From a virus, in the IMG/VR virus record IMGVR_UViG_3300047409_000361, positions 1 to 50,516 of that record: a stretch of 50,516 nt of DNA. One strand, written 5' to 3'. The notes beneath the pieces were generated by a model. The model was not told where the DNA came from. It was given only the letters and a program-made list of their open reading frames with translations, and did not search any database. The position numbers were made by a program, and so were the translations under genes. Shown here piece by piece: positions 8,202 through 47,954 of this stretch. Numbering within the stretch: the first letter of the stretch is position 1; the number at the start of each line of letters is the position of its first letter.

Positions 8202-8521
8202 GGCAGGTGCCGATCTGGTCGTCGTCTATTGATGTTCCCGATCGCAGTGACCTGAGACTGGGCCCGTCGCTTCCTTCGGGCCCCCGTGCGCTTCATCGAA
8301 GCGACAGTCATCGGATCTTTCGCCCACTTGGGACCACCCCCACGAGCCACCTCGCCAATCACCTTCGAGTCTTCAGTGGCACCGTGTCGCCACTGTCCAT
8401 AGTTCACCCTGAGTCGGTCCGACATCGTGTCCGTCGCCTTGGGTAGTCCGAAGGGCAGTTTCCTGGCCAGCTTGGTGTAGGACTTGGAGACCGTGTGCTC
8501 GACCCCAAACGCGCTGATCAT
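8198..8521 (-). CDS. Tagged basic protein (SAFGVEH motif), 107 aa
   Basis: The N-terminus reads MISAFGVEHTVSKS, a member of the recurring SAFGV(D/E)H...SK tag family; here the residues between H and SK are shortened. The rest is very basic (KLARKLPFG, ARRKRRAQSQ, NINRRRPDRHLP) with no visible membrane segment. It overlaps both neighbours as ATGA. The strong positive charge suggests contact with nucleic acid or an acidic scaffold. It lies directly after another tagged gene, downstream of the tape measure, so the family is not limited to the head module. Confidence 0.7.
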   Translation of the reverse strand: MISAFGVEHTVSKSYTKLARKLPFGLPKATDTMSDRLRVNYGQWRHGATEDSKVIGEVARGGGPKWAKDPMTVASMKRTGARRKRRAQSQVTAIGNINRRRPDRHLP

Positions 8522-8790
8522 GGCTGCTTCCTGTCGAAGAGTGGACCCAACGCCTTCTCCATGGCGTCATGGATGGCGTTCTCCAGACGGATCGCTTCCT
8601 TCTCGTTCATGTCGAAGTCCCGAGGCAGGTCCACACCCACGGTGACCTGACGAGAGCCGATCTTGGTGTGGTACATCGAGCCGGGTGTCTTGCAGTTGCT
8701 CCCGGTGGTGGCGAACCTGCCCCGCATGTCCCTCTTGTACTCATGGGACTTGGAGACCTCGCCGTGCTCGATGCCCCAGGCGCTGGTCAT
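8518..8790 (-). CDS. Tagged protein (SAWGIEHGEVSK motif), 90 aa
   Basis: The start at 8790 lies in an ATGA overlap with the tape measure stop, and the protein begins MTSAWGIEHGEVSKS. Trp replaces the Phe usual in the family. After the tag comes YKRDMRGRFATTG, similar to the GRF segments in MuF and in the 1320-aa protein (GYDGRFGTK, DPATGRFMV). The C-terminal 40 residues form a likely amphipathic helix (EKEAIRLENAIHDAMEKAL). No enzyme motif is visible. Confidence 0.72.
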   Translation of the reverse strand: MTSAWGIEHGEVSKSHEYKRDMRGRFATTGSNCKTPGSMYHTKIGSRQVTVGVDLPRDFDMNEKEAIRLENAIHDAMEKALGPLFDRKQP

Positions 8791-17461: not shown

Positions 17462-18024
17462 CAGGGGAGTACCCGCTTGCCTTCTCGACGGACCAGGTTG
17501 TGGTGGCCCTTCAGGGCTGCCTTGGACCAAGCAGCCTCTCGTTCACCCAGATCACGCTCGCCTTCACGACCCCACTCAGCAGCCCTGGCTCTACCTCCGA
17601 GGTAGTGAAGCTTGAGCTTTCCGCGCATGGTGTCGTTCGCCTTGATAGCGCGATCTCCATGCATCGCCTTCCGGGCACTGATGACGTTGGGCCGATAGGC
17701 CTTGGAGACCTCGCGAGCTCTGGTCTTGCCACCAGAGTCATCGGAGAACTTCACGCCCGGCTTCAGCTCCTTGCGGTCGGTGATCGTGTGCCACGTTGCG
17801 CCTTTGATCTGAGCACCGGTGGTGTGCTTAAGCGTCTTCTTGTCCCGATCTCGAACGTGCTCGTAGACCCCGGTCTTGTCATCCAGGTAGCCGACGTGGT
17901 GCACGTTCACCCGACCGTGCTTGGGATGCTGGTAGGTGGTGTGCGGATGGTCGTACCAGGCGTAGCCCTCGTGCACACCCTTGCTGACGATCCCGTGGTC
18001 GATGCCGAAGGCGCTCTCCATCAC
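17461..18024 (-). CDS. Tagged basic protein (SAFGIDHGIVSK motif), 187 aa
   Basis: The N-terminus MMESAFGIDHGIVSKG carries the recurring tag. The next 60 residues are rich in His, Tyr and Asp (YAWYDHPHTTYQHPKHG), then the protein becomes strongly basic to the end (HHNLVRREGKRVLP). The terminal KRVLP is shared with the 88-aa tagged protein at 47688-47954 (QKRVLP), further evidence of common ancestry. It lies between the stopper and the gp10-like gene, with 1- and 4-base overlaps. Enzymatic function is not evident. Confidence 0.72.
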   Translation of the reverse strand: MMESAFGIDHGIVSKGVHEGYAWYDHPHTTYQHPKHGRVNVHHVGYLDDKTGVYEHVRDRDKKTLKHTTGAQIKGATWHTITDRKELKPGVKFSDDSGGKTRAREVSKAYRPNVISARKAMHGDRAIKANDTMRGKLKLHYLGGRARAAEWGREGERDLGEREAAWSKAALKGHHNLVRREGKRVLP

Positions 18025-18943: not shown

Positions 18944-19314
18944 TCCGCCGTCTTCTTGCGGTTGCGCTTGGGCTCCTTGTCGCTCAGGAGCTTGTAGCCG
19001 AGCGCGCCTCCCCCTCCCACCGTTGCCGTACCGGTGATCCCGGGGTGTCGCGCCATGAAGGCGCTGGTGAGTCCTGCGGCGGTGCCCATCTTCCTACCGA
19101 CGCCCTTGATCGAGACATCCGCCTCGCCGGCCCGGTTCAGCGCACCCCTGACCCCGCGCTGGGAGCCCGGTACGACCGGACCCGTGCCGGCGGTCCGCCG
19201 CTGGGCAGCAGAGCCTCGCCTGCGCAGGACGCGCGTGAGCGACCTCGGGGGTCGCGGCGCACTGGCTCTGACCTTGGAGATCTCCCCGTGGTCAACCCCA
19301 AACGCGCTGTACAT
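18940..19314 (-). CDS. Tagged protein with C-terminal glycine-zipper anchor, 124 aa
   Basis: The protein begins MYSAFGVDHGEISKV, a consensus tag. A highly basic middle follows (RPPRSLTRVLRRRGSAAQRR). Near residues 93-111 comes the Gly-rich hydrophobic segment GITGTATVGGGGALGYKLL, followed by the basic tail KEPKRNRKKTAE. Tag, basic body, glycine-zipper and positive tail recur in the genes at 19320 and 46263. The hydrophobic part may insert in a membrane or self-associate. Located between the adaptor and another tagged gene. Confidence 0.75.
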   Translation of the reverse strand: MYSAFGVDHGEISKVRASAPRPPRSLTRVLRRRGSAAQRRTAGTGPVVPGSQRGVRGALNRAGEADVSIKGVGRKMGTAAGLTSAFMARHPGITGTATVGGGGALGYKLLSDKEPKRNRKKTAE

Positions 19315-19319
19315 CAGCC

Positions 19320-19673
19320 CTACCGCCTACGGTTGCTGTAGAGACCAGCACCAGCCGCACCCACTCCGGCAGCTCCTACACCAGTCGCGATGGCTCCGGT
19401 CTTGATGGGGTTCGCGGCCATGTTCGTGCTCAGCTTCCGGAGGCCTCCTCCGACCTTCCCCAACCCGGCTCCGACGTTCTGCATCGGCTTGTTGACCTTC
19501 CCCGGGGTCGCCATCCGAGCTCCGGTGCCAGGCTGGGCGGCACGGCGCAGGCCGGCACCCTTCCGGCTCAGGGCGGAGCCGACGTTCCTGGTCATGCTGG
19601 CCAGACCGGTACCGAGCCCCTCGAACTTCTCGATCTCGTCGTAGCCGTGGTCGATCCCGAAGGCGCTCTCCAT
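19320..19673 (-). CDS. Tagged protein with C-terminal glycine-zipper anchor, 117 aa
   Basis: The start MESAFGIDHGYDEIEKF carries the tag in its longer form, with YDEIEK replacing GEISK. The body is basic and rich in Gly and Ala (GSALSRKGAGLRRAAQPG). Residues about 93-112 form an extreme small-residue hydrophobic segment made of repeated GxxxG-type steps (GVGAAGVGAAGAG), followed by SNRRR at the C-terminus. This is the clearest tail-anchor-like member of the family. Function unknown; likely virion-associated by context. Confidence 0.75.
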   Translation of the reverse strand: MESAFGIDHGYDEIEKFEGLGTGLASMTRNVGSALSRKGAGLRRAAQPGTGARMATPGKVNKPMQNVGAGLGKVGGGLRKLSTNMAANPIKTGAIATGVGAAGVGAAGAGLYSNRRR

Positions 19674-20187: not shown

Positions 20188-20453
20188 CAGACTGCCCGTC
20201 GCTTCCCGCCGCCACCGAACGGGTTGAACGACTTCGCCTTGAGCGTGCCCCGATGTGACCCGGGTGCCCGGTGGGCTCCACCGCTGCGCATCCCGGTCTT
20301 GGCTGCCAGGGAGTCATACATCGGGCTGGCCTCGCCGACGTGCCTCCCGGCCTGGGCTACCTTCTTGCCGCCGCCGAACAGACCACGGACAGCACTGCCG
20401 ATGCCCTTCTCGACCTCTTCGTACCCGTGGTCGACACCGAATGCTGAGTACAT
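20187..20453 (-). CDS. Tagged basic protein (SAFGVDHGYEEVEK motif), 88 aa
   Basis: The N-terminus MYSAFGVDHGYEEVEKG carries the tag. The rest is Gly/Lys/Arg-rich (AVRGLFGGGKKVAQAG, FNPFGGGGKRRAV) without a long hydrophobic segment. An AGGAGG Shine-Dalgarno four bases before the ATG suggests strong translation. It is the first gene after the major capsid protein and its terminator-like hairpin, so its level may depend on read-through. Confidence 0.74.
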   Translation of the reverse strand: MYSAFGVDHGYEEVEKGIGSAVRGLFGGGKKVAQAGRHVGEASPMYDSLAAKTGMRSGGAHRAPGSHRGTLKAKSFNPFGGGGKRRAV

Positions 20454-21945: not shown

Positions 21946-22752
21946 CTACCGGGCCTGCTGCGAGCGCAGGTACTCGTCGTAGGCGTCCGGATTCTGGTCG
22001 AACACCGTATTGACTGCTGAGACAGCGTTGAAGTCCTCCGACTTGCCGAACGTGTCGTAGGCGTGCTGCTCGACCTGGCTGTAGATGTCAGCGTTGTCGC
22101 CGCCACCGGTGTAGCCGGTCTCCTCGAAGATGATCTCGCCCGCCGTCTCCAGGCACTTCGCGATCACCGCGCAGTCGTCGTAGCTCATCGTCTCGGCCAT
22201 CCGGTAGAGCACCGGACCGAGCTCCTCGGGGGAGATCGGCAGGTTGTACTCGGCGGACTTGGCGATGTACTCACGGGTCAGACGCAGGTCGCGCTCGGAC
22301 TTGGCGATGAGCTCGGCGTTGTACTGAGCCGCCTCGAGCTCCTCGACCCGGCCAAGCGCCTTCGCGATCACCGCGTCTCGATCCGAGTCCGTGAACGCCT
22401 TGGAGAGCTCCTGCATCACCGACTGGCTGAAGCTGCCCACCTGGGGCTGGAAGAACGCACTCTTCCCGACTTCGGCCATCTCGAGCTGACCTTCGTCCTC
22501 GTACTCACCGTCGTCCTCGTCATCGTCCTCGACGAACTCATAGGCAGCGCCCTGGTCGTCGTACACGATGTCGCCGAACTCCAGCTGATCCTCATCGAGG
22601 GGCTGACCCTCCTGGTTGTAGAGCTGGGGCATCTCTTCCTCCTCTGGAGCCCTCTTCGCGATGACGAACCGGCTGTACTGGTTCGCAGCCTTGTCGACGG
22701 TGGAGATCTCGTCGATCTCCATGTCCGTCAGGTTCTTGATCGGCCTTGGCAT
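21946..22752 (-). CDS. Probable scaffolding protein
   Basis: This 268-aa protein is acidic and mostly helical. It begins MPRPIKNLTDMEIDEISTVD with KAANQYSRFVIAKR, similar to the start of many phage scaffold and prohead protease proteins (eiSlVdkgAN). An acidic stretch (EFVEDDDEDDGEYEDEG) and long helices follow. Eight of its ten lysines occur in the context hydrophobic-(A/S/G)-K, seven of them followed by A, S, C or R (for example VIAKR, ELSKA, LIAKS, YIAKS). The regular distribution suggests repeated protease sites for scaffold removal. It lies immediately upstream of decoration and capsid genes. Confidence 0.75.
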   Translation of the reverse strand: MPRPIKNLTDMEIDEISTVDKAANQYSRFVIAKRAPEEEEMPQLYNQEGQPLDEDQLEFGDIVYDDQGAAYEFVEDDDEDDGEYEDEGQLEMAEVGKSAFFQPQVGSFSQSVMQELSKAFTDSDRDAVIAKALGRVEELEAAQYNAELIAKSERDLRLTREYIAKSAEYNLPISPEELGPVLYRMAETMSYDDCAVIAKCLETAGEIIFEETGYTGGGDNADIYSQVEQHAYDTFGKSEDFNAVSAVNTVFDQNPDAYDEYLRSQQAR

Positions 22753-22796
22753 CTCATCTACCTCTAGTTCTCAGTCTCACGGTGCTGTCCACTCGG

Positions 22797-24275
22797 CTAC
22801 AGGAAGGCCTGCTCGTTCGCCTTCATCTTCTTGGTCTTCACCCGTGAGGTGATCGGTCCCCTCATCCCGACCGGGGCTGGCTTGGAGGCCGGAAGGTTCT
22901 GTGCCGACTGGACTCGTTGGTTCCATCCGGTGTTGGCGTGGTACTGGGCTCCGTAGCCCTGCACATCTCCGTTGGCCGCGTAGTGCCTACTCGCCAGCTT
23001 CCCCAGCTTCTTGGCCTGCGCCCGGTGCGCACCATAGGCGAAAGACGAGGGGTGTCTGGCCGGGCCCATGCCTTCGCCCAGCTTCGCCGCGGCGATCCCT
23101 CCGGCTCCGGCCTCGTGGGCCAGCCTGCTGCCCTGACCAAGGATCGAGGCCTTGCTCACCTCGTGATCGACACCGAACGCGCTCTTGGAGACCTTGCCCT
23201 TCCCGTACTTGCCCTGCATCGCCATCAGCTGGGCCGCGTCCTGGTCGCTGACGTTCCCGATCTTCCTGAAGCCGGGCTTGCGCTTCTTCCCGAAGAGCTT
23301 GGACACGTCGTCGCGCTTGGCGTACGACTGCCAGCTCGAGTTCTTCTTCCGCTTCAGGTGCATCCCAGCAGCCACCGACCCGCCCAGCACCGCGGCTCCG
23401 ACCGCCGCCTTCCCGCCGTGCTTCAGGGCAGGGGACAGGTGCTCGGTGCGGATCGCACGGGTGATCCCCTTCGCGTCGGGCCTCAGGTGTGCCGCCCGTG
23501 CCTTCACCTCCGCCTTGCCTGGGATCTCCGCCTGCTCCGGGATGGCATCCCTCTTGGGCCGATGCGGCACATACCCGGGGTCGCCCTTCCTACCCACCCT
23601 CTTCTGGTAGTCCTGTGCCGGCTTCCCCGGCTTGAACGGGACGTGCTTCACCTCGGGCTCGTGCGGACGGTCCGGGACGTGCACGGTCGGGGCCATCTGC
23701 TCGGACTTGATCTTCCGACCGTGCCTGACCGCCTGGATCCCGTGGTGCCCGCCGTACGCCGCACCCGCGCCACCGGTCACCAGGGCACCGGCGGAGTAGG
23801 CGTCGCCCCGCTTCTTCCGGCTCCGCTCGGAGTCGAAGTTGGAGGCCGAGGGCGTCCACGCCTTCTCGATCTCGAACTCGATCTCCTCGTGGGTGAGGGG
23901 AGTCCCCTCCTCGCCGTAGTAGCCCATCTCCATGCCGAGGTCCTTCTTCACCGGTGTCGCCTGCTTCCGTCGTCTCGACTCTGCCGAGTAGATGCTCGCC
24001 TGGTTGAACCCGCCCACACCGCCGATGCCACCGGAGACGATCCCGGACTTGATCGCAGTCCGCTCCATCTTCTCGGGAGTGGTCTTCTTCAGCCCGGGGA
24101 TCTTGCGGATCATGCCCAGCGTCTTCTCGCCGGCAGGACCCTTCCGGGCAGCCAGCGCCGCCGCCCCGGTCACGCCCAGCGCGGAGAGACCCATCGTGGA
24201 GGTGGTGCGCCCGATCTGGCTCTGCAGCTTCTGACGACGCCGCTGCTCGGCCTCGGACATGATCCGCTTGGTCAT
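22797..24275 (-). CDS. Glycine-zipper basic protein with internal SAFGVDH motif, 492 aa
   Basis: This large basic protein contains several small-residue hydrophobic segments, for example GLSALGVTGAAALAARKG near the N-terminus, IVSGGIGGVGGFNQASIY, ALVTGGAGAAYGGHHG and AAVGAAVLGGSVAAGMHL, each flanked by Arg/Lys. At residues 365-371 it carries SAFGVDH followed by EVSKAS, identical to the N-terminal tags of other proteins but internal, as if an upstream glycine-zipper protein had fused to a former stand-alone tagged protein. No enzyme motif is visible. It starts at a TGATG junction just after a gene ending in the same motif. Probably a virion-internal, membrane-active protein. Confidence 0.7.
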   Translation of the reverse strand: MTKRIMSEAEQRRRQKLQSQIGRTTSTMGLSALGVTGAAALAARKGPAGEKTLGMIRKIPGLKKTTPEKMERTAIKSGIVSGGIGGVGGFNQASIYSAESRRRKQATPVKKDLGMEMGYYGEEGTPLTHEEIEFEIEKAWTPSASNFDSERSRKKRGDAYSAGALVTGGAGAAYGGHHGIQAVRHGRKIKSEQMAPTVHVPDRPHEPEVKHVPFKPGKPAQDYQKRVGRKGDPGYVPHRPKRDAIPEQAEIPGKAEVKARAAHLRPDAKGITRAIRTEHLSPALKHGGKAAVGAAVLGGSVAAGMHLKRKKNSSWQSYAKRDDVSKLFGKKRKPGFRKIGNVSDQDAAQLMAMQGKYGKGKVSKSAFGVDHEVSKASILGQGSRLAHEAGAGGIAAAKLGEGMGPARHPSSFAYGAHRAQAKKLGKLASRHYAANGDVQGYGAQYHANTGWNQRVQSAQNLPASKPAPVGMRGPITSRVKTKKMKANEQAFL

Positions 24276-25336
24276 CAGTGCTCCACCCCGAACGCACTCA
24301 TCCGTGGGTTCCAGGACTTCTTCATCCTGTCCCGATACATCCGGTGGCCCTCGGTCGCGGCCAGCCCGGCAGCCCCGACGCCGGCGACTGCCAGGGCGGG
24401 CTTGATGCCCTTCCCGGCCAGCTTCGCGTGGACGTGGTGCACCCTTCCGAAGTAGGCCTCCTGCTTCGATGCGCCATACAGCTTCCCGGCTGCCTCAGCC
24501 GCTTCGGGGCCCTTGCCGTGGAAGCCCTCCCTCACTGCCTTGGAGGCGTTCTTCTCCGGAATCAGCTTGCCGTGCAGCTTCTCGTACTCTCGGTACATCC
24601 CGCTGCCCAGACCGGGCTCGATCTTGGCTGCCTCTCTGGTGCTGTGCCGAGCCTTTCCTTCCCACTTGCGCTCCTGGGACCGGAAGATCTTCTTGCCGGC
24701 GTAGAGACCTCCGGCGGTCGCCCCACCGACGCCGATCGCCGCGCCCGAGGCACCCTCCACCTGGCGATCACTCGGCGTGAGCTTCTGCTTGGCCCTGGTC
24801 AGAGCGGGATGCGCGTCGCGCTTGTTCAGCTCGTGCTTCTTCTTGCCGTGGTGGGCCAGGGCCACACCACCAGCAGTGAGCGCGAGGCCACCGGCCAGGG
24901 CCTTGTGACCACCACGGCGCAGCCCCGTCATCTGCCGCATGATCACGCGCTCGGGCGGGATCTTCCCCGCGGCCTCGCCGTGTCGGAACGCCTTCATGTG
25001 GGACATCTCAGACACCGGAGTCTTGGCAGCTTCGTGTACCTTCCCGGCCTCGCTGGACTCGACGATGTAGTGCGCGCTCTGCCGGAACCCGCCCATCCCT
25101 CCTTGCCACCCCTTGCGCGACTTCGGGATGTTGCGTACGAACTCCTTGACCTTCTTGGGCTTGGTCTCGGCGTGCTTGATCTTCTCGTTCTCCGTCACAT
25201 GCCTCAGTGCGATGGAGTCGACCTTGGCCCTGGGGATGCCACCCGCAGCCAGGCCACCGACCGTAGTCACACCACCCGCACCGGCTACAGCAGCGCCGGT
25301 CGGTGTCTGCCAGTCGCGCTTCTTCTTCGCGGTCAT
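24275..25336 (-). CDS. Glycine-zipper basic protein ending in SAFGVEH, 353 aa
   Basis: This protein has four glycine-zipper-like segments: about residues 14-33 (GAAVAGAGGVTTVGGLAAGG), 147-163, 197-213 and 314-329 (ALAVAGVGAAGLAATE), separated by basic linkers. The start MTAKKKRDW plus a Gly/Ala run resembles the N-terminal KSKRDWAIGLGTATVGG of the 1320-aa protein. The last eight residues are MSAFGVEH, the family motif truncated before its usual SK end, directly at the junction with the next glycine-zipper gene. It follows the protease by ATGA overlap. Likely head-associated; function unknown. Confidence 0.7.
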   Translation of the reverse strand: MTAKKKRDWQTPTGAAVAGAGGVTTVGGLAAGGIPRAKVDSIALRHVTENEKIKHAETKPKKVKEFVRNIPKSRKGWQGGMGGFRQSAHYIVESSEAGKVHEAAKTPVSEMSHMKAFRHGEAAGKIPPERVIMRQMTGLRRGGHKALAGGLALTAGGVALAHHGKKKHELNKRDAHPALTRAKQKLTPSDRQVEGASGAAIGVGGATAGGLYAGKKIFRSQERKWEGKARHSTREAAKIEPGLGSGMYREYEKLHGKLIPEKNASKAVREGFHGKGPEAAEAAGKLYGASKQEAYFGRVHHVHAKLAGKGIKPALAVAGVGAAGLAATEGHRMYRDRMKKSWNPRMSAFGVEH

Positions 25337-26601
25337 GTGCGCCTCCCGTGACCGTGGATGCTGAACCCGGTCCGCTCACCGCTCTTCACCATGTCCCAGA
25401 CGCTCGGGTCCTGGACCTTGAACCCGACCCACCAGCCAGAGGGCACCGAGTCCGGGAGACCCATCGCCTCCCGCTTCTCCGGGGTCACGATGAAGGACTC
25501 GATCATCTCGGACTTCTGGATCGGCTCCCAGTTGTTCCGCAGGTGCATGTCCCCGCCCTTGCGGGACTTCATCACGTACTCGTAGCCCGCCTTCTCCATC
25601 TCGTCGATGGAGATCTGGTCACCCTGCAGGTCCACGATCGGCTCGCCGTTGACCTCCACCACCGACGCCCAGCCGAAGATCTGCTGCTTGTCCGCGTCGG
25701 CCTTGGAGATCTCCGCATCCCAGATCACGTCGATCTCGTCGTCGTCACGCTTCGCGACCTTCTTCGGGGCAGGCTTCGGACCCTTCTTCTTCGGGTGGGT
25801 CACCGGCTTCCCCGCGCCATACGCAGCTCCGAGCGCAGCCCCGCCACCGATCATGGCGAGGTGGGCCTTGGAGCCCTTGTGGTTCCAGGTGACGACGGTG
25901 GCCGGGAGAGAGGAGATGCCAGCCCCGGCGGCGGCGTTGTACCCGATGCTCTCCGCCCGGCTCCTGGTCTTGACCTTCTTCTCCACCTCGTTGGAGGTGC
26001 TGATCGGGTTCGGGAGCTTCTTCAGCGCGCCCTTGCTCTTCCGGGTGTACTCGACCGCCTTCTTCCGGTTCGAGCTCTTCAGCATCGCCCGGGTCATGGA
26101 GCGCTTGCTCGGCACGTCCGAGGAGTTGTTGATGATGTCGCCCAGGTCCTTCTGGACCAGAGTGCCCTTCTTCTTCGCGTCCCCGTGCAGGATCTTGGTG
26201 GCCATCACCTCACCACCCAGGCCCGCCACCTCCAGCGGCAGCAGCGCGGTCGCCAGCTTCTCCTTGCCCGCCGCGTGCTTGAGCGCAGCGATCCGGCCCA
26301 TGGTCGGCTTGGCGGAGGTCGCCGCGTGCTTGGCCGCTCGGGCTGCCCTACCGCCCTTGGCCCCGAACCGAGCCACCTGGTAGGACCGGGCGATGTTGTG
26401 CCCGCCCAACGCCAGACCTGCCGCACCCGCCGTGGCACCCACCGCGCTCAGGCCGGCGGTCATCGCGCGCTTCTTCCGGTCCGAGATCTTGGGCTTGGCG
26501 TGGGTGGCCAGATCGGACTGGGTGGGCTCCATCTTGGAGATCAGCTCGGAGCCGGGTCCGTAGAGGAGCTCGACCACCTCTGCGAAGATCTCATCGCTCA
26601 T
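25333..26601 (-). CDS. Capsid maturation protease (XkdF-like) fused to glycine-zipper region
   Basis: The start at 26601 follows a GGAG Shine-Dalgarno and gives 422 aa. Residues about 305-420 (FGWASVVEVNGEPIVDLQGD, DMHLRNNWEPIQKSEMIES, GWWVGFKVQD, ERTGFSIHGHGRR) match the XkdF-like putative serine protease domain (Peptidase S78_2), the usual prohead protease of such phages. The N-terminal 300 residues are unusual: two glycine-zipper segments (AGLSAVGATAGAAGLALGG; AMIGGGAALGAAYGAG) in a Lys-rich background. Potential self-cleavage contexts ELISKM, KVAKRD and AEISKA lie around and before the protease domain. Neighbours are MuF and glycine-zipper proteins. Confidence 0.82.
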   Translation of the reverse strand: MSDEIFAEVVELLYGPGSELISKMEPTQSDLATHAKPKISDRKKRAMTAGLSAVGATAGAAGLALGGHNIARSYQVARFGAKGGRAARAAKHAATSAKPTMGRIAALKHAAGKEKLATALLPLEVAGLGGEVMATKILHGDAKKKGTLVQKDLGDIINNSSDVPSKRSMTRAMLKSSNRKKAVEYTRKSKGALKKLPNPISTSNEVEKKVKTRSRAESIGYNAAAGAGISSLPATVVTWNHKGSKAHLAMIGGGAALGAAYGAGKPVTHPKKKGPKPAPKKVAKRDDDEIDVIWDAEISKADADKQQIFGWASVVEVNGEPIVDLQGDQISIDEMEKAGYEYVMKSRKGGDMHLRNNWEPIQKSEMIESFIVTPEKREAMGLPDSVPSGWWVGFKVQDPSVWDMVKSGERTGFSIHGHGRRT

Positions 26602-26623: not shown

Positions 26624-28573
26624 CTAGTCGCGCTTGGGCAGCGGCGTGGCTCGCATCGGCTTGGCCTCCAGATGCAGGGCGTTGAACTCCTGTCCCGTCG
26701 CCCAGCCCCTCTCCCTGGCCCGGTAGTTGCCCTCGAACTCGGGGACCGGCTTGAAGTACCTGTCGTCCAGCTCGGAGTCTGCCCGCTTCGGAGTGTGGCC
26801 CAGGCTCCGGTCGATCGACACGATCGGGACCGCGAAGTCCTCGTCTCGCAGAGATAGCTGGCTCCTGAGCACCGGCAGCGAGAACCCGGCCACGATCGGA
26901 TTGCCCCTCTCGTCGTAGGCCTGCTCACCAGAGGCGTCGAGCTCCCGCACCCGCAGCGGCATGGTGATGTCCATCCCCGGAGGGTCCAAGGTGGTGGCAG
27001 CGTCGATCTGAGCCCGTCGCGCCGCGTACTCCGCGACCTCGTTGACCTGCTTCGGATGCAGCGCGTACTGGTGCCCTCGGTAGTCGGTGAAGGTCGCACC
27101 GGCCTCGACGATCTGAGCGACCCTGGCATCGACCCGAGCCCGGATCTCCTCCGAGGCAGCCGCCTCAGCCTGCTGTCTGGTGGCGTAGGTGATGTCCGAT
27201 CGGTTCAGCTGGATCTTCCGACCGTCCGCGTCGTACATCTCGTAGCTGGGCACCGCCCAGCGCATCAGCCCGAGCTTGGTCTTGACCTGGACCGGAGTGA
27301 TCGGCTTCAGCGCGGGCTTCGCCGGAGCACGGGTTCTGGCCGGAGCCTTGGTCTTCACCTCGGTGGTCACCTCGGTCTTCGGCTCGACCACCGGCGTCCA
27401 GACCTCGGTCTCCACCGGAGCCTCGGTTCCGACCACGGCGTACGTGGCCGGCAGCGAAGGGGTTGCCCGAGCTCGAGCCGGAGGCAGCCACGAGTACTGG
27501 GCGATCTCGGCGAACTTCAGGTCCTGCTGTGGGTCGGTGTCCGGCATCGTCATGCCCTGGGTGAGCCGGTCGAACTCCTCATCCACATCCAGGACTCCCA
27601 CCCTGGTCCTGGTCTTGGTCCCGAACCTCCCGTCGTACCCGCGCGGGTGCTCCTGGTTGAACTCGTACAGGTCGGCCCCACCCAGCGCCTTCGCCAGGGT
27701 GAACCTGTTCTCGATCAGTCGGACCACGCACCGGCAGTTGGGGTGCAGTCCGGGTGACCAGAAGTCACCGTGCGCGGTCTTGAACTGCTCGTTGACCAGC
27801 ACCTTCCGACCGTGCAGCGGGCCGCACACCGGGCACACCCGCTCGTCGCGCGCGGTGATCCAGAGCTTCTGTGCACGCTCGTTCAGCTGGCCCTTGTCCT
27901 GGAGCCACATCCAGGCGAACTGCTTCGCCTGCTCGTCGATGTTGTGCTCCTCCTGCCGGCTCAGCTTCCTGGTCCGCTGGGTGAAGGCCCGGTCGACGTA
28001 GGCGCGAGCACGCTCCTTCAGAGCCCGGGGCACGATGTCCATGATCGGCGTGTTGAACTGCTTGTTCGCCACGAACCCACGCATCTGCCGTGGGGTCAGC
28101 CCGTAGGCATCCAGCACCCGGTCCGCCGCCACCCGGGCCGGGATCTGCCGGTTCACCATCGAGTTGAAGCCCTCGGACAGCGCCTGCCGTGAGGTCTCGT
28201 GGAAGTACATCCCGACCTTCTCGGCGTGCTTGTCGGCCAGGTCGTAGATCACCGACATCGGCACATCACCCGCGTCAGCGGCCTGGTAGGCGTGCAGGTA
28301 GGCATCCGCGATGATCGGAGCCGACACCTTGCGGAACCGCCAGAACCCGGCCTGCCAGGCCAGGTCGGCGATCCGCATCAGCTGGTAGTGGGTGGGCTGA
28401 CCGATGCCCCTGATCTCGCCCTTCATCTGGTCCACCATCGCCGCCCTGGTCATCGCCAGGGCAGCCTCGATGGCATCCGCGGGGGTGCCCAGGAACTCGC
28501 CCGCCTTCGGCAGGTCACCTGGCCGCAGGTCGGTCGGGTTGACCCGTAGCTCGACATACGGGGCAGTGGTCAT
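26624..28573 (-). CDS. MuF-like minor head protein
   Basis: This 649-aa protein has near residues 240-285 the classic signature of the SPP1 gp7/Mu gpF family: WITARDERVCPVCGPLHGRK, then FWSPGLHPNCRC, a probable zinc site. The N-terminal 230 residues are helical. After the MuF domain comes LYEFNQEHPRGYDGRFGTK and a long Val/Thr/Lys/Ala/Pro-rich tail (TEVTTEVKTKAPARTRAPAK). MuF proteins sit inside the head near the portal and some are ejected with DNA. It follows the 1320-aa protein by an ATGA overlap. Confidence 0.85.
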   Translation of the reverse strand: MTTAPYVELRVNPTDLRPGDLPKAGEFLGTPADAIEAALAMTRAAMVDQMKGEIRGIGQPTHYQLMRIADLAWQAGFWRFRKVSAPIIADAYLHAYQAADAGDVPMSVIYDLADKHAEKVGMYFHETSRQALSEGFNSMVNRQIPARVAADRVLDAYGLTPRQMRGFVANKQFNTPIMDIVPRALKERARAYVDRAFTQRTRKLSRQEEHNIDEQAKQFAWMWLQDKGQLNERAQKLWITARDERVCPVCGPLHGRKVLVNEQFKTAHGDFWSPGLHPNCRCVVRLIENRFTLAKALGGADLYEFNQEHPRGYDGRFGTKTRTRVGVLDVDEEFDRLTQGMTMPDTDPQQDLKFAEIAQYSWLPPARARATPSLPATYAVVGTEAPVETEVWTPVVEPKTEVTTEVKTKAPARTRAPAKPALKPITPVQVKTKLGLMRWAVPSYEMYDADGRKIQLNRSDITYATRQQAEAAASEEIRARVDARVAQIVEAGATFTDYRGHQYALHPKQVNEVAEYAARRAQIDAATTLDPPGMDITMPLRVRELDASGEQAYDERGNPIVAGFSLPVLRSQLSLRDEDFAVPIVSIDRSLGHTPKRADSELDDRYFKPVPEFEGNYRARERGWATGQEFNALHLEAKPMRATPLPKRD

Positions 28574-31500: not shown

Positions 31501-32532
31501 AGTCTGGGGCTTGAAGATGTTGTTGGTCCGCTCGATCGCCTCCGGTGACATCCCGCCCAGCAGCCCGTACGCCGCACCACCGGCAGTCAGTGTCTTCGGC
31601 TTGGCCTCCATCGCCACCAGCGAGAAGTTGGGGTCGTCCAGGAACGTCGTGGGCGGCTTCAGGTCACCACTCGGAGCGAGGTGGGTGAAGTTGTTACCGG
31701 CCCGGTCCCGCAGGTGGTAGATCACATCGACATCGCCGGTCTGACCGCTGATGCCCTTCACCCCGCCCAGGAACGAGGCCACCTGCCGGTACTCGTCCTG
31801 GTATCGGGCCCGCTGCTCCCGGTTCAGGTGTGCCGGAGCCGTGGTCCCGATGATCGTCTCCTCCTGCTTCCCGGACAGCGGGTGGGTCATGGTGTGCTTC
31901 ACCTTGACCATGAACCGTCCGGTGGCGGGGTCACGGCGGAAGTCCGCGGGATCCCAGTCGTAGCCGTAGAACTGCGGAGTGTGCGACGGGTCCGTCTCCT
32001 TGGAGATCTCCTCCAGGACCGCGTGCGCCTTGGCGAAGGTCTCCAGCTGATCCACCGGTGAGTTCAGGGCAGCCCGGACCAGGGCCCTCTCCAGCTGCTC
32101 GGCACGCTTGGCGAAGACCTGGTTCAGCGACTTCTGGATGGTCTCCAGGTTGTTGTTGATGTCGTCCTCGAACAGGTCCGAGACCACGATCGTGGTGAAC
32201 ATCTCCGCGGTCGGCATGTCCATCTTCATCACCAGGTTGAACGCCGCCTCAGCAGCCCGGTGGTTGAAGTAGGGGTCGGTCGAGGTCGGGGTGTAGTAGG
32301 CCTTCTTCACCTTGCCCTTGCTCTTGTCCTTGTCCTTCTTCCGGCGGAACCGAGCCGCCGGGACCTGGTTGGCGAGCGCACCACCCACGGTGGCGGTACC
32401 CAGGCCGATGGCCCAGTCCCGCTTGGACTTGGAGACCTTCTTCTTGCCCCGGATCTCCGAGTCCCACTTCGCCGCGATGCCCGGGTGCTGGGCGTGCATG
32501 AACCGGCGCTGCTTGTCCGACTTGTAGGGCAC
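28570..32532 (-). CDS. Very large head-module protein of unknown function, 1320 aa
   Basis: This protein lies between portal and MuF, an unusual place for so long a gene. It begins MPYKSDKQRRFMHAQHPG, a start I recognise from small phage proteins, followed by KSKRDWAIGLGTATVGGALA and a Lys-rich stretch. Regions with apparent folded character run through about residues 240-720, with Tyr/Phe-rich segments such as ISVYGREIQDAKKYG and VQAVGYGDDHYLPFNLKHLG. A long helical charged region (about 700-780) and a Pro/Thr/Gly-rich linker (about 1125-1180) precede a helical C-terminus. No catalytic motif stands out. An internal or portal-proximal virion protein, possibly ejected, is the most economical reading. 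Confidence 0.7.
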   Translation of the reverse strand: MPYKSDKQRRFMHAQHPGIAAKWDSEIRGKKKVSKSKRDWAIGLGTATVGGALANQVPAARFRRKKDKDKSKGKVKKAYYTPTSTDPYFNHRAAEAAFNLVMKMDMPTAEMFTTIVVSDLFEDDINNNLETIQKSLNQVFAKRAEQLERALVRAALNSPVDQLETFAKAHAVLEEISKETDPSHTPQFYGYDWDPADFRRDPATGRFMVKVKHTMTHPLSGKQEETIIGTTAPAHLNREQRARYQDEYRQVASFLGGVKGISGQTGDVDVIYHLRDRAGNNFTHLAPSGDLKPPTTFLDDPNFSLVAMEAKPKTLTAGGAAYGLLGGMSPEAIERTNNIFKPQTQHGDAWATTLATKWSDAGTTPEGTGRLFGRLNAGGTFLNQAAPPGSKAQLAGKFAQVVGQYGPEAEKVIGPSARKTAYRYRGTEKAPDEALISVYGREIQDAKKYGITEPEADKRLMARDGKPGFGTLREQNRGDFTSMGSRRPTGAREVREQGYTPSIHQMSQDRAGEAQMMMREPSWAERGAGTAIVADYLHRRLPDKHLYKLHVSAGNTPPSEGVIINSEGQLAVQAVGYGDDHYLPFNLKHLGALKGGEYIRNRSVGGLTSEDVYTGLITGARRVTVVSRSGTFSMEFEPDFRGGRRHNDKAKRMTARYEALLDAVQSGQVDRQQVPKAWKEEIKQEVLSDEYFRNARKEVQQDEIEARLKEFKEHPKIEGRDEERAEHMAQAFEERAARGEVSTQDAKDYRTQVFNELYNMKEVRFRLNGIGYEAALKSLQEQFPYYIKKVETKPQRDEELLEFTLDDGYVEPGRNRPTAANAGYYGTKENKGQKFLSASQVDYQRGKKQKTKTGEGTAAAPETTPEGTEGAGGAGTPDEEARRRQQRNDTLAREGSIREAVEHAVRLRADIRLGVPDRNYVGGQQPGFMSMDDDRFRVWMKEDSANIDKFNRFLEDNAGVWSQNGAGGIGGFADKYERYKNAAGQATSNPYHRDKATNFPAVPYSFTGEGEGEDERAYHAKARPAEISAALRKLDRSTNLLTSRKQLSELTDDEMRTEIGRLDSLRRLKTQGQSTDELLTTNRDFSPDAPSPRQLESIFESDESMAKHLDKIHQSRYLRSMEKLANVPPPAQPGRGGPTTPTPGTGPTTPPAAPPTPAPGPTGPTTPPTGPTSVPVVNPPGGPGGPARATNAQVRGRIKPVDTTPLHEKLGKEKSQAMEAGAKANTYQKLRLARHEEAKRNGSGTLTPNAARRMQEESSQADRIAHLLHTMPAETTRQEIFDLITSKTPNEDLRRGVLRIYDLRDLSPTPLAGPQLNSSP

Positions 32533-32533
32533 G

Positions 32534-34435
32534 TCAGCGTCCCTTCTTCTTCGGCGGGAGCTTCTTGGCGGTCTTCTTCGCAGCCGCCTTCTTCGGCGGG
32601 GCTGCTGTCTTCTTGGCCGCGACCTTCTGCTGCTGGAGCTTCAGTTTGGCATTGGTCGCCGCCGAGCGGTCCTTGTGCTTGAGCGCCTCCAGGGAGCGCT
32701 TGTGCTCCCGGCTGCTCATCGTGTCCTGGAGCCGCATCCGCTCCTTCTCCCGCGAGTGGGTCTTGTCCGCGGTCTTGTCCTCGAGCTGCATCTTCTCCTT
32801 GTCCCGGAAGTGCTGCTTCTCGGCGTTCGGGTCCTCGGGCGGGGGCTGCTGCTGGATCTGGGCCTGCTGCATCGCCTGCTCGTTCTGCAGGTCCATCTGC
32901 CCGGCCTGCTGCTGGAGCTCGGACTCCTGGGTCGCCGGGTGCGGGGACTCGGAGTGCAGCTGGGCCTGCTCCGGGGTCATCCCCTGAGCCGTCATCTCGG
33001 CCTTCTGCTTCATCCCGAGCAGGTCCATCTGGCCGGTGGCGTACTCGGTCATCTGCTGCTGCTGCAGCATGATCCGCTTGTAGTCCACGTCCTCGTCGGT
33101 CATCTCCGGGAGGCGGGCGATCTCGCGGATGTACTTCTCCAGCTCCGGGTCCGGGAACCACTGCATGCCGGCACCGGCGGTCGAGGAGATGAAGGCGGCG
33201 AGCTGGTCGAGTGCCGGCGGGTCCACGTTGGTGGGCTCGAAGCGCGGCAGCTCGTCCAGCTTCCACCCGTTGACCGCGAACAGGCGGGGGACTGCATAGC
33301 GGTTCAACGTGTCTGCGATCGCCTTCGTGATCGCGTTCAGGGCAGCCCGGAAGATGCCGGTCTTGTCGGTGTGCAGGGAGTAGGAGCCGGTGTCCTGGTG
33401 CCCGACCAGGATGAAGTCGGCCAGCACGCTCATCAGGATCCGCTGCTCGTAGCGGGTGATGATCGCGTTGGTGTCGAACTGACGGGTGCCACCGGAGCTC
33501 ATCAGCTCGAAGTCGAAGAGCGGCTGCTTGGTGTCCGGGTCGTACTGGGTGGGGAGGACCAAGCCCTCGTTCTCGTCACGCCGTACGCCGCGCACCATCT
33601 TCTTGAAGGCCTCCACGGTCTTCGCCTGGGGCGTGCCCTTGGCCGCGGTCAGGTAGTCGGCAGGCACCTTGCCCACCGGCATCCCGGCCAGGTCCCGCTC
33701 GACACCGATCGCCTCGAACTCCTCCAGCCGCTTCTTGAAGTACCAGGAGCGGTAGGAGGTGCGGAGCAGGGACATCCCCTCCGGGTTGCCCTTGGCGATG
33801 GAGGTGCGGAACAGGACGCTCTTCTCGATCGGGATCACCGTGGTCTGGTACCGCGGCGGTGCCATCTGCACCATCGACCTGATCCCGCCGGTCTCGTCGA
33901 AGGACCAGCGCAGCAGCGTCTCCTGCGCGCGGATCGGCATCTTCCGCCAGCCGATCAGACCGTCGTTGTGCTTGGACCGCCTCTTCGGGTCCTTCTGCCA
34001 GGGGCCGAGCCGGCGCTTGTAGACGATCTCGTGCCAGGACCATCCGTAGATGATCATGGACAGGACCTCGCCGATGAAGTCGTCCCAGCTGTGGGACATG
34101 TCCTCCATGCAGCTCTCCAGGAACTCCTGGGCCTCGTTCCCCTGGTCGGACTGTTCGGGCGGGAGCACCTTCCACTCCACCTCGCGCAGCAGCTTGTCGA
34201 TGCTGAACAGCAGGGCCCCGACCATCGAGTCGTTGGCCGACATCTCCCGGTAGACCCGGACCGCCTTGCGGCCCCGGAGCGCCGGCAGGAACTCCTCGTC
34301 GACGTAGCCCGACATCCGCTTGACGCCGGTGACACCCAGCTCCTCCATGGGCCCGACGCGCTTGGGAACCTCGTCCCCGGCGTTGTCCTCGTCCCAGGTC
34401 GAGATGTCGCCCTGGGGAAGCCGCACGTCTGCCAT
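32534..34435 (-). CDS. Portal protein with Gln-rich coiled coil and lysine-rich tail
   Basis: This 633-aa protein is next to TerL. The core (MSANDSMVGALLFSIDKLLR, YGWSWHEIVYKRR, TSIAKGNPEGMSLLRTSYRS, ILVGHQDTGSYSLHTD) matches the Mu gp29/DUF935-type portal family. From about residue 445 it changes into Gln-rich helices (QQQQMTEYATGQMD, QQAGQMDLQNEQAMQQAQIQ) and charged coiled coil (EKERMRLQDTMSSREHKRS), ending in a Lys/Ala/Pro block (KKAAAKKTAKKLPPKKKGR) that resembles histone H1-type tails. This extension could face DNA inside the head. Twelve-subunit ring assumed from family. Confidence 0.88.
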   Translation of the reverse strand: MADVRLPQGDISTWDEDNAGDEVPKRVGPMEELGVTGVKRMSGYVDEEFLPALRGRKAVRVYREMSANDSMVGALLFSIDKLLREVEWKVLPPEQSDQGNEAQEFLESCMEDMSHSWDDFIGEVLSMIIYGWSWHEIVYKRRLGPWQKDPKRRSKHNDGLIGWRKMPIRAQETLLRWSFDETGGIRSMVQMAPPRYQTTVIPIEKSVLFRTSIAKGNPEGMSLLRTSYRSWYFKKRLEEFEAIGVERDLAGMPVGKVPADYLTAAKGTPQAKTVEAFKKMVRGVRRDENEGLVLPTQYDPDTKQPLFDFELMSSGGTRQFDTNAIITRYEQRILMSVLADFILVGHQDTGSYSLHTDKTGIFRAALNAITKAIADTLNRYAVPRLFAVNGWKLDELPRFEPTNVDPPALDQLAAFISSTAGAGMQWFPDPELEKYIREIARLPEMTDEDVDYKRIMLQQQQMTEYATGQMDLLGMKQKAEMTAQGMTPEQAQLHSESPHPATQESELQQQAGQMDLQNEQAMQQAQIQQQPPPEDPNAEKQHFRDKEKMQLEDKTADKTHSREKERMRLQDTMSSREHKRSLEALKHKDRSAATNAKLKLQQQKVAAKKTAAPPKKAAAKKTAKKLPPKKKGR

Positions 34436-34461: not shown

Positions 34462-35964
34462 TCACACCATCAGGTCGAGTTCCTCCGCGACCTGCTCGGA
34501 CTTGTTCTGCACCGAGCCCACCACCCAGTTGCCGGGCTTCCGGGCAGCGTCCTTGTTGTACTTCATCTCCTCCTCGATGAAGGTCGGACCGTGGTCTCCG
34601 GGGATCACCACCGGGTTGGCCGGGATCGCACGCTTGGAGACCAGCCGATAGCACAGCGCCATCGAGCACACCTCGTCCGGCAGGTGGAACTCCTTCCCGC
34701 GCGCGTAGAGCATGTCCACCGAGGCGTACAGGTGGTTCTTGTAGAAGACCGGCACCCGGGGTGCCCGCCAGCGATCGTTCTCGATCGAGCTCACGTACTC
34801 GCTCAGCATGTTGTCACGCTGGGCTCCGGTCATCAGGAAGCCCCGCGCGCGCCGGTCGATGTAGTCCGCGACCACAGCACCCAGCCCGGTGGCGTCGTGG
34901 ATGCCCTCGGCGTTGTAGGCCTGCATCAGCTTGTTGAACTCCCCGATCATCACCGGGTAGGGCAGCCGGCGCATCCGGGACCAGTGCACGACCCGGATCG
35001 GGAACCGGGTCACGTCGACCACGGTGATCACCGTCCAGTCCTGCTCCTTGGCCCAGTCCGCTCCGATCACGTACTCCGCGTCCTGCTTGGGCTCCTCGAA
35101 GCGGTAGACCTGACGCTCCTTGGACACGCTCTGCCGGATGCTCTGCTCGGGCAGCGAGAACATCTTCTCCACGCTGGCGGAGTCGATGGCACGGGATCCG
35201 ATGCTGGGCTCACCCAGGTCGTACTCCACCCGCCACATCTCGGCGGGGATCTCCCGGCGCTTCTGGTCGATGGTCTCCTGCTCGAGCCAGCCGTCGATCG
35301 GGTTCGAGGTGTCCTTGTAGCACCAGGTGTAGATCGGCAGCCCCTCCTCCTGGAACCGCAGGTACTCGTGCGCGAAGGTCTTGTCCGGGTACTGCCAGGT
35401 CGAGGACATCGCCGTCATCGGGCGGATGGTGTCGCCCTTCCAGTTCTTCTGCGGCATCGGCTGGCCCTTGGCCGCGTCGAAGATGGCCTGGTCCATCTCG
35501 TCGATCTCGTCCAGCAGCAGGGTCGGCGGGTGCGGGCCACGGACCGTCTTCTGGCTGGCCGTCAGCGGCATGATCGTGGCCAGGTTGGTCAGCTTGATCC
35601 TGGTGGCGCTCTCCTCGCGCACCAGGTAGGACGGGGCGTTGCCGTGCTCCCAGGCGTCCCGGATCGTGTTGTGGATGTTGATCGACTGGTTCAGGGAGCC
35701 GCCCACGATGTTCACATCGGAGCCGGTGATGGCTGCCTTGGTCAGTCCCAGGATGGAGAGCAGTCTCGACTTCCCGGACAGACCACGAGAGCCGTGGATG
35801 AGGATCTGCGGCTCTCGGTTGAAGTAGGCGGTGGCGAAGGCGTCGAAGGGGGCGTCGTGGTCGGAGCAGACCTTGTGCCGGGGGATGGTGATCCCCCACA
35901 GGGCCTTGACCGTCTCGTAGAGCTCGTCGTCGCTACGTGGTGCGCGACCCAGGATGATGGACAC
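34462..35964 (-). CDS. Terminase large subunit
   Basis: The GTG start, seven bases after AGGGG, gives 500 aa. Walker A GSRGLSGKS spans residues 58-66 and Walker B LLLDEID spans about 149-155. D303 in VIGADWAKEQDWTVITVVD and D357 in EGIHDATGLG are the expected nuclease acids. This ATPase/nuclease packages DNA through the portal encoded next. The small subunit is not adjacent; the best candidate is the HTH protein at 47977. It overlaps the upstream 107-aa gene by 32 bases. Confidence 0.93.
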   Translation of the reverse strand: MSIILGRAPRSDDELYETVKALWGITIPRHKVCSDHDAPFDAFATAYFNREPQILIHGSRGLSGKSRLLSILGLTKAAITGSDVNIVGGSLNQSINIHNTIRDAWEHGNAPSYLVREESATRIKLTNLATIMPLTASQKTVRGPHPPTLLLDEIDEMDQAIFDAAKGQPMPQKNWKGDTIRPMTAMSSTWQYPDKTFAHEYLRFQEEGLPIYTWCYKDTSNPIDGWLEQETIDQKRREIPAEMWRVEYDLGEPSIGSRAIDSASVEKMFSLPEQSIRQSVSKERQVYRFEEPKQDAEYVIGADWAKEQDWTVITVVDVTRFPIRVVHWSRMRRLPYPVMIGEFNKLMQAYNAEGIHDATGLGAVVADYIDRRARGFLMTGAQRDNMLSEYVSSIENDRWRAPRVPVFYKNHLYASVDMLYARGKEFHLPDEVCSMALCYRLVSKRAIPANPVVIPGDHGPTFIEEEMKYNKDAARKPGNWVVGSVQNKSEQVAEELDLMV

Positions 35965-46266: not shown

Positions 46267-46907
46267 GCTGTCCTCGGCTTCCGGTTGGCGTAGAGAGCAC
46301 CACCGCCCGTGGCAGCAGCGCCAGCACCCAAGGTGCCTAGCATGACCTTGCCGCTGAGCAGAGGCGAGTGCTCCGGCTTGGCGGCTCGCTCGGTGGCACC
46401 GACCCCACCCATCGGTCGGGCCACGTTGGCAGCCGAGCGCTCGCTCACCATCTTCTTGGCCCCCTGAGCCGAGGCAGTACCGGTTCGCTTCTCCGCCGCC
46501 GCAGCCTGGTAGAGCTGGGTCTGGGCACCCTTGCGTGCTCTCCCGCTACCACTGAACCGACCGATCCCCCGAGTGTCCGGGACCGCCTTGGCTGCCTGGA
46601 TGTGCTGGGCGACCTTCTTGCCCTGCGCGCCTGCCGCCAGCCGTTGTGCGGCGTACGCATCGCCCTTGGCCGCAGCTGCCATCAGCCTGGGTGCGATCTT
46701 GGCGTAGGACTTCTTGACCCCGAACCAGGAGTCCACATGCTCGTGGGGCTTGGCCACGATCTCCCCTGATCTCTTCTTGGCCATCGCCTTGATCCGCTTC
46801 TTCTTGTCCTTGGCGATGTCGCTGATGGCCGCTCGGTTGTTCCCGTAGGCCATCGAGTACTTGGAGAACAGGTCTCCGTGGTCCACCCCGAACGCGCTCT
46901 GCATCAC
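46263..46907 (-). CDS. Tagged protein with C-terminal glycine-zipper anchor, 214 aa
   Basis: The N-terminus MMQSAFGVDHGDLFSKYS carries the tag. The body is basic and Ala-rich (KDKKKRIKAMAKKRSGEIV, GRFSGSGRARKGAQ). Near residues 189-207 lies VMLGTLGAGAAATGGGALY, followed by ANRKPRTA. The architecture of tag, basic body, Gly-zipper and basic end equals that of the 117- and 124-aa proteins in the head module 27 kb away, although this gene sits among fibre genes. A second ATG directly follows the first; both start the same protein. Confidence 0.75.
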   Translation of the reverse strand: MMQSAFGVDHGDLFSKYSMAYGNNRAAISDIAKDKKKRIKAMAKKRSGEIVAKPHEHVDSWFGVKKSYAKIAPRLMAAAAKGDAYAAQRLAAGAQGKKVAQHIQAAKAVPDTRGIGRFSGSGRARKGAQTQLYQAAAAEKRTGTASAQGAKKMVSERSAANVARPMGGVGATERAAKPEHSPLLSGKVMLGTLGAGAAATGGGALYANRKPRTA

Positions 46908-47290: not shown

Positions 47291-47691
47291 GCGCTCCAGG
47301 ACTTGGATCGACCCGAGTACCCGCTCGGACCTCTACCGAAGATCTTGGGCCCGGGCCGGTAGCGGTCCACGGATGCAGCAGCTGTGGTGCTGATCGCCGG
47401 TTCCCTGACCTGCTCGAGCGTCGACCTGGACGCGGTGCGAGCCGAGCGACCAGATGACTTCGGGGTCTGACCCCCGAACACGTTGCCCCTCTCCTGGGGC
47501 AGCCGAGCAGCGGTTCTGCCCGCCTTGTGGGCCTTCAACCGCTCAGCGGCGTAGGCGATCTTCTTCTCCCCTGGGGCCATCGAGCGGTTCGCGGGTATGC
47601 GCATGTGCTCGTACTTCCCGGCTACTGCGGCCAGGCCCTTGGGCACGCCCTTGCTGATCTCGCCATGGTCGACACCGAACGGACTGATCAC
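47287..47691 (-). CDS. Tagged basic protein (SPFGVDHGEISK motif), 134 aa
   Basis: The GTG at 47691 lies in a GTGA overlap with the preceding stop and places the tag (MISPFGVDHGEISKG) at the N-terminus; Pro replaces the usual Ala. The alternative upstream ATG would bury the tag. The remaining sequence is very basic and Ser/Arg-rich (SGRSARTASRSTLEQVREPA; GRGPSGYSGRSKSWSA) with GEKKIAYAAERLKAHKAGR in the middle. No hydrophobic anchor. It forms a pair with the next tagged gene upstream. Confidence 0.74.
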   Translation of the reverse strand: MISPFGVDHGEISKGVPKGLAAVAGKYEHMRIPANRSMAPGEKKIAYAAERLKAHKAGRTAARLPQERGNVFGGQTPKSSGRSARTASRSTLEQVREPAISTTAAASVDRYRPGPKIFGRGPSGYSGRSKSWSA

Positions 47692-47954
47692 GGCAGCACC
47701 CTCTTCTGACGACTGACGTTGCCCTGCATCTCCTGCAGCTTCCACCGTGAGGCACCCCGGAAGCCGTGACCGAACTCCTCACCGGACTTGCGGCCTCTCC
47801 GCCCGGCCAGGTGCGCGGTCTTGCGCGCGGTCATGTAGTCCCGGCGGTTGAAGGCCTTGGGACCGGCCAGCCTGCCTACAGCTCCACCCTCACGCAGCGC
47901 ACCGGGGATGCCCTTGCTGATCTCCCCGTGCTCTACACCGAAGGCGCTCCTCAT
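47688..47954 (-). CDS. Tagged basic protein (SAFGVEHGEISK motif), 88 aa
   Basis: The protein begins MRSAFGVEHGEISKGIPG, the consensus form of the tag. It is strikingly basic (RRDYMTARKTAHLAGRRGRK) and ends RQKRVLP, nearly identical to the RVLP ending of the 187-aa tagged protein at 17461. No hydrophobic segment. It is the first tagged gene in transcription order. Confidence 0.75.
   Translation of the reverse strand: MRSAFGVEHGEISKGIPGALREGGAVGRLAGPKAFNRRDYMTARKTAHLAGRRGRKSGEEFGHGFRGASRWKLQEMQGNVSRQKRVLP

Follow-up and report, generated by a model that had tools for sequence, protein, structure and literature searches.

In phage HK97 the cut lies between K103 and S104 (PMC10275583), and in phage T4 the prohead protease gp21 cuts after L/I-x-E (PMC9026906). 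The internal proteins of the T4 head are basic and diverse, and they carry a ten-residue capsid targeting sequence (CTS) with a targeting function in its first part and a processing site in its last; Alt undergoes trimming at its N- and C-terminal ends alike (PMC9026906). A comparable arrangement built on lysine can be read from the head genes of an uncultured virus. The stretch of DNA analysed here (the window) is IMG/VR record IMGVR_UViG_3300047409_000361, a single virus record of 50.5 kb and 65% GC that we take to come from soil. It encodes a putative scaffold, a prohead protease with a Peptidase_S78_2 (XkdF-type) domain, and proteins bearing a short tag peptide, S-A-F-G-[VI]-[DE]-H, that recurs across the clade of related viruses. 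Lysines in a hydrophobic-x-K context fill the scaffold and stand beside the tags. Very probably these lysines are the P1 residues of a prohead-protease code. In other words, the S78_2 protease would cut the scaffold, clip targeting tags from other proteins, and probably free its own catalytic domain.

The lysine motif in scaffolds

The open reading frame at 21946-22752 is taken as a separate, putative scaffolding protein because of its place in the gene order (protease, scaffold, cement, capsid protein), its acidity (-15 charges per 100 residues), and a C-terminal half that is helical in a low-confidence predicted model. The same order is found in Roseobacter phage CRP-6, Rhizobium phage RHph_Y60, and marine contigs.

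All eight lysine contexts quoted from this protein in the initial annotation are present. They account for eight of its ten lysines, leaving only K6 and K21 outside the motif [ILVFMYT][ASG]K; shuffled sequences are expected to contain 0.7 such sites, and none of 1000 shuffles reached eight. Each of the first 21 IMG/VR homologues was likewise enriched beyond its shuffles, with 8 to 11 sites apiece, and so were more distant homologues found by a profile scan. In some distant scaffolds every lysine stands in hydrophobic-x-K (11/11 in L264, 9/9 in L268, and 11/11 in L253). The full set comprised 47 distinct homologues, from which 19 representatives below 72% identity were used for motif counts. 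In these representatives [ILVFMY][ASGTHQ]K[ASGC] was counted 139 times (5.2 expected). When arginine took the place of the lysine the count was 1 (5.3 expected), with glutamate it was 8 (15.3 expected), and with aspartate 5 (11.1 expected).

How strictly is the lysine kept? The 47 scaffolds and eight site columns give 376 cells, 364 of which hold lysine and none of which holds arginine. The 12 exceptions are confined to two columns, and in 12/12 a new site lies 2-4 residues away. K151 is replaced by glutamine in six scaffolds, all of which have (E/Q)(V/I)AK-A four residues upstream; K165 is replaced by valine in six others, all of which have EVAK two residues downstream. Lysines outside the sites interchange freely with arginine (VDK and VDR, for instance, at 31 to 12). 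Arginine would be acceptable in a structural or charge role, so its absence at the sites, together with the nearby replacement of lost sites, disfavours such a role. Since the sequences of the clade are related, the counts are not independent, and the replacements and the other scaffold families described below are the better evidence.

Hydrophobic-x-K-small is also enriched in the scaffolds of Arthrobacter phages Kovu and Ottawa, Microbacterium phage ValentiniPuff, Rhizobium phage RHph_Y60, Roseobacter phage CRP-6, a gut phage, and marine contigs, all from records that carry a Peptidase_S78_2 match. These scaffolds hold 8 to 14 sites against 1.2 to 2.7 expected, each beyond 400 shuffles, and none of them is enriched for arginine or glutamate in that place. 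The initial annotation had proposed comparing lysine contexts between scaffold and tail proteins. In the window and in relatives this comparison gave a lysine-specific enrichment in scaffolds, with tape-measure and MuF controls flat. A counterpart of K33, hydrophobic-x-K-(R/S) at the end of the N-terminal domain, is found in the Arthrobacter, Rhizobium, Roseobacter, and gut phage scaffolds; in Kovu the N-terminal domain is followed by VVCK-S. Beyond that point the sites align poorly between scaffold families, and most of them have therefore arisen separately or moved.

Calibration on known systems consisted of a blind scan of all residues for enrichment in the context hydrophobic-x-X-small. 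The scan picked glutamate in T4 gp22 (z 4.2), lysine in the HK97 delta domain (z 3.9), and lysine in every S78_2 scaffold tested (z 4.8 to 9.3), and found nothing above z 2.3 in lambda Nu3, T7 gp9, or P22 gp8. Counted directly, [LI]xE occurs 16 times in T4 gp22 against 5.8 expected, and the lysine motif occurs 4 times in the HK97 delta domain against 0.8; the HK97 sequence at K103/S104 reads TFNK-SLGS. The residues picked match the known codes, and thus the scan was correct in both known cases and silent in lambda Nu3, T7, and P22. Phage P1 was rejected as a further lysine example, the residue before its mature capsid end being glutamate. Phage D3, in which MPR precedes SAIT close to where a cut would be expected, was not used as an example for want of an exact cut position.

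The tag and the lysine beside it

Further copies of the tag were collected with a pattern that made no use of the lysine. Even so, [I/V/F/L]-x-K follows N-terminal tags within ten residues, at variable distance, in 169/169 distinct copies; when the following 60 residues were shuffled in 200 rounds, the mean was 30 and the maximum 44. At C-terminal tags the order is reversed. Hydrophobic-x-K precedes the tag in 29/29 copies, the next residue being mostly S, R, or N (for example, YAK-RDTA-SAFGVDH), and there is normally no site after the tag. Where a copy is truly internal, sites flank it on either side. A lysine that lies between tag and body in either orientation fits an excisable tag and not a fixed binding peptide. 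It also supports the proposal of the initial annotation that a single lysine-specific activity could serve both scaffold removal and tag clipping, and the tag ends that it quoted (ISK-G and VSK-S) are present. Its hydrophobic-(A/S/G)-K code describes the scaffold, but beside tags P2 may be E, Y, or T and P1' may be many residues. A better form of the motif is therefore hydrophobic-x-K, with a preference for small residues at P2 and P1'.

Conservation of the tag is at the level of the peptide and, judging from its codons, not of the DNA. Its serines use both TCN and AGY codons (99 vs 114), and 213 copies comprise 185 different 21-mers. For these reasons an explanation at the level of DNA, such as a repeat or a regulatory site, was rejected. 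In the gene at 24275-25336, SAFGVEH abuts the stop codon, and this codon overlaps with the beginning of the following gene; tags likewise abut the stop in L002, L004, and L007.

The bodies of the tagged proteins fall into 66 families with no detectable relation. They are net positive in 168/168 cases, with a median of +14 per 100 residues and a length of about 97 residues, and many contain Gly/Ala-rich hydrophobic stretches. Most untagged proteins of the window are acidic or neutral, although some are mildly basic. Within each contig the tags are confined to one strand. The features of a T4-type CTS are thus seen here: the same short terminal peptide on unrelated basic proteins, and a protease-type motif between peptide and body. 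L/I-x-E is not present at the tags, where the motif has lysine in every case, and the tag would therefore work like a CTS but is not the T4 CTS. By this likeness the tag would target proteins into the prohead. A hint of where it might dock comes from the scaffold. In many relatives (including L264, L268, and L272; about 22430-22465 in the window) the K97 site is followed by SAFF or SAFG, which resembles the tag core, and the tag may copy a docking segment of the scaffold.

The N-terminal part of the protease and the proteins at 24275-25336 and 22797-24275 are, like the tag bodies, strongly basic and contain several hydrophobic stretches rich in Gly/Ala. Such proteins are possibly DNA-binding or membrane-active ejection proteins. 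INPHARED contained no isolated phage with this scaffold or tag; a host search found the scaffold encoded by no cellular genome and gave no match to the strict tag pattern.

The protease and other readings of the motif

Residues 297-421 of the protease match Pfam PF14550 (Peptidase_S78_2, XkdF; E=4.1e-17). In an alignment of 25 sequences the candidate catalytic MH (H66) and FSI (S127) of the domain are invariant. The catalytic domain is preceded by hydrophobic-x-K in 25/25 aligned relatives (K13 of alignment A2), and a second site near residue 23 survives length changes in most relatives (for example, LLTQIASVSK-MNPTQSD). On the strength of this conservation, both look like autocleavage sites.

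Head and tail genes lie on the minus strand, the head genes in the transcription order terminase, Mu-type portal, 1320-aa protein, MuF, protease, two basic proteins, putative scaffold, cement-like protein, and major capsid protein (PHROG 1005). Features of the window are collected in Table 1.

Table 1. Head genes, predicted cleavage sites, and tag copies in the window
Feature	Position	Strand	Remark
Terminase	34462-35964	(-)	
Mu-type portal	32534-34435	(-)	
MuF protein	26624-28573	(-)	
Prohead protease, 422 aa	25333..26601	(-)	long basic N-terminal part, then XkdF-type catalytic domain, residues 297-421
Two basic proteins	24275-25336 and 22797-24275	(-)	between protease and scaffold
Putative scaffold, 268 aa	21946..22752	(-)	acidic; between protease genes and cement/major capsid protein
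Predicted cleavage after scaffold K33 (VIAK-R)	22654..22656	(-)	N-terminal domain end; K in 47/47 scaffolds
Predicted cleavage after K97 (EVGK-SAFF)	22462..22464	(-)	K in 47/47
Predicted cleavage after K118 (ELSK-A)	22399..22401	(-)	K in 47/47
Predicted cleavage after K131 (VIAK-A)	22360..22362	(-)	K in 47/47
Predicted cleavage after K151 (LIAK-S)	22300..22302	(-)	K in 41/47
Predicted cleavage after K165 (YIAK-S)	22258..22260	(-)	K in 41/47
Predicted cleavage after K199 (VIAK-C)	22156..22158	(-)	K in 47/47
Predicted cleavage after K237 (TFGK-S)	22042..22044	(-)	K in 47/47
Predicted autocleavage after protease K300 (AEISK-A)	25702..25704	(-)	just upstream of catalytic domain; K invariant in 25 proteases
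Predicted autocleavage after protease K23 (ELISK-M)	26533..26535	(-)	hydrophobic-x-K before QSD motif in most relatives
Predicted cleavage after MuF K295 (TLAK-A)	27689..27691	(-)	MuF domain end; sliding hydrophobic-x-K in many relatives, not all
Predicted cleavage after K178 of 1320-aa protein (EEISK-E)	31999..32001	(-)	hydrophobic-x-K nearby in most relatives, shifted
N-terminal tag MISAFGVEHTVSK-S	8483..8521	(-)	
N-terminal tag MTSAWGIEHGEVSK-S	8749..8790	(-)	gene start probably 8790
N-terminal tag MMESAFGIDHGIVSK-G	17980..18024	(-)	
N-terminal tag MYSAFGVDHGEISK-V	19273..19314	(-)	
N-terminal tag MESAFGIDHGYDEIEK-F	19626..19673	(-)	
N-terminal tag MYSAFGVDHGYEEVEK-G	20406..20453	(-)	
Internal tag, VSK-SAFGVDH-EVSK-A	23151..23192	(-)	lysine on both sides
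C-terminal tag, MKK-SWNPRM-SAFGVEH-stop	24278..24325	(-)	lysine before tag
N-terminal tag MMQSAFGVDHGDLFSK-Y	46860..46907	(-)	
N-terminal tag VISPFGVDHGEISK-G	47650..47691	(-)	GTG start
N-terminal tag MRSAFGVEHGEISK-G	47913..47954	(-)	

Several existing labels touch on this family. The S78_2 protease of Kovu (PQ184785.1, 14773-15126; L284) and that of Ottawa (OQ938580.1, 53620-53970; L283) lie inside genes annotated as 'RNA ligase', and the Kovu label 'capsid maturation protease' sits on a MuF-like gene; these labels are likely misannotations. The S78_2 protease domain is also matched by PHROG 1530 (E=9e-19), whose label 'DNA methyltransferase' is thus misleading. The tape measure protein of the window (8787-15002) has peptidase- and endolysin-like segments near its C-terminal end.

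That cleavage occurs at the lysines, and that the S78_2 protease performs it, we infer entirely from sequence, and this weighs against the proposal along with the following points. Several scaffold sites fall within helices of the predicted model. The motif is not raised by count in the protease (3 vs 4.1 expected), MuF (1 vs 2.1), or the 1320-aa protein (7 vs 6.1). An S78_2 match is absent from 8 of the 23 tag-bearing contigs, several of them short; these contigs may be incomplete or carry a diverged protease. One of the tag-bearing contigs, IMG/VR 3300012971_000020 (G012; L179), has eight tags and no S78_2 match in 71 kb, so that either its protease gene is not on the contig or its protease has diverged. 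The S1 pocket of the protease was not identified in a predicted model of moderate confidence (pLDDT 75), and the protein has no significant fold or sequence match in the PDB; for these reasons a reading of the pocket from the predicted structure was rejected.

The count result also bears on sites that the initial annotation had quoted from other head proteins (ELISK-M, KVAK-R, EISK-A, TLAK-A, VSK-S, FAK-R, and FAK-A). All of them are present, but they are not enriched by count. The counts in these three proteins were accordingly rejected as evidence, and their sites are lower-weight predictions. Such sites gain support only through a lysine site kept at that junction in relatives or through an adjacent tag.

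Could the motif serve something other than cleavage by this protease? It could be a binding element, with repeated hydrophobic-small-K segments of the scaffold docking on the capsid protein or keeping helices in contact, and with the tag lysine belonging to a docking peptide. The sites in predicted helices would suit such a role, and docking of the tag-like segment after K97 is possible in any case. However, C-terminal tags have their lysine on the opposite side and so outside any fixed docking peptide, the chemically similar arginine is never used, helical tape-measure proteins are without the motif, and the same test recovers the known T4 and HK97 cut codes. A binding element is therefore unlikely. 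Alternatively, the cleavage code could be real but read by another protease, from the host or from elsewhere in the phage. The link between enzyme and sites is indirect, and the tag-bearing contigs without an S78_2 match would be accounted for. Set against this, every lysine-code scaffold tested outside the clade comes from an S78_2-bearing record, and characterised tailed phages with prohead cleavage use the phage's own protease (PMC9026906, PMC10052503). Another protease is thus very unlikely to be the reader. It is harder still to credit that the reader is not a protease but an enzyme that modifies or cross-links lysines, for example by forming isopeptide bonds or, if the host is an actinobacterium, through the host's Pup ligation. 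A required lysine would explain why arginine does not substitute, but this reading would leave unexplained why the lysine always stands between tag and body and why 169/169 tags have a hydrophobic residue two positions ahead of it; nor was such an enzyme noticed among the head genes. That the pattern reflects composition or chance in a single protein, a reading suggested by a window scaffold with only 10 lysines, is refuted by the counts in the 19 representatives, by the replacement of lost sites, and by the independent families that behave alike, and it has practically no standing.

If the S78_2 protease does cut after these lysines, the scaffold, protease, and tagged proteins would assemble within the prohead, with the tag docking, at a guess, where the scaffold segment after K97 docks. 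Inside the assembled prohead the XkdF-type protease would then cut after the lysine of hydrophobic-x-K, and it would probably liberate its own catalytic domain. Cuts at eight or more sites would break up the scaffold, and the pieces, about 13 to 64 residues long judging from the spacing of the eight sites, would leave the prohead. A cut between tag and body would leave mature basic internal proteins with the DNA.

A wider view appears somewhat more probable than its negation. In this clade of uncultured soil phages, a modular, position-independent capsid tag, SAFG-V/I-D/E-H, would load many unrelated basic proteins into the head and be excised by a lysine-specific prohead protease; the lysine code would run through all S78_2 phages back to HK97; and the P1 residue could be read from the scaffold alone. 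The lysine code supplies a cleavage rule, open to testing, for head proteases of a phage family that is widespread but uncharacterised, and a list of probable internal head proteins that at present lack annotation. It also offers a candidate for a portable head-loading peptide that is independent of T4's, and suggests a simple general method, in which the P1 residue preferred by a prohead protease is predicted from the residue over-represented in hydrophobic-x-X-small of the scaffold.

Comparison with described head-processing systems

The HK97 protease gp4 belongs to Pfam family S78, not S78_2, and to our knowledge HK97 has no tagged internal proteins. The initial annotation had named T4 as the precedent. 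T4 is the closer system for the tag, but HK97 is the closer one for the lysine. The sequence at the HK97 cut (PMC10275583), TFNK-S, fits hydrophobic-x-K-small, and the delta domain is enriched in this motif. In HK97, however, the scaffold forms one domain of the capsid protein, and a single mature cut is documented, whereas here it is a separate protein with eight or more predicted sites.

The proteases gp175 of phiKZ and gp245 of SPN3US offer a parallel in that one short motif recurs in many head proteins and propeptides contain redundant sites (PMC10052503, PMC5694885, PMC9026906). These enzymes, however, cut after glutamate (A-x-E, S/A-x-E). Phage P1 provides a parallel for targeting, because a capsid localisation signal takes DarB into the head and can do so for a foreign protein as well (PMC9024508). 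In contrast to the window, the P1 major capsid protein is cut after glutamate (MLE before SVAAEM), and no such repeated tag has been described.

T4 differs in that gp21 cuts after glutamate, in L/I-x-E, whereas the residue here is lysine, and in that the tag here is also found at C-termini and inside proteins. No homology to T4 sequences was found. The likeness lies in the organization: a separate helical scaffold that is chopped at short-motif sites in T4 (PMC9026906), and a short N-terminal peptide on diverse basic proteins, with its targeting and processing parts adjacent.

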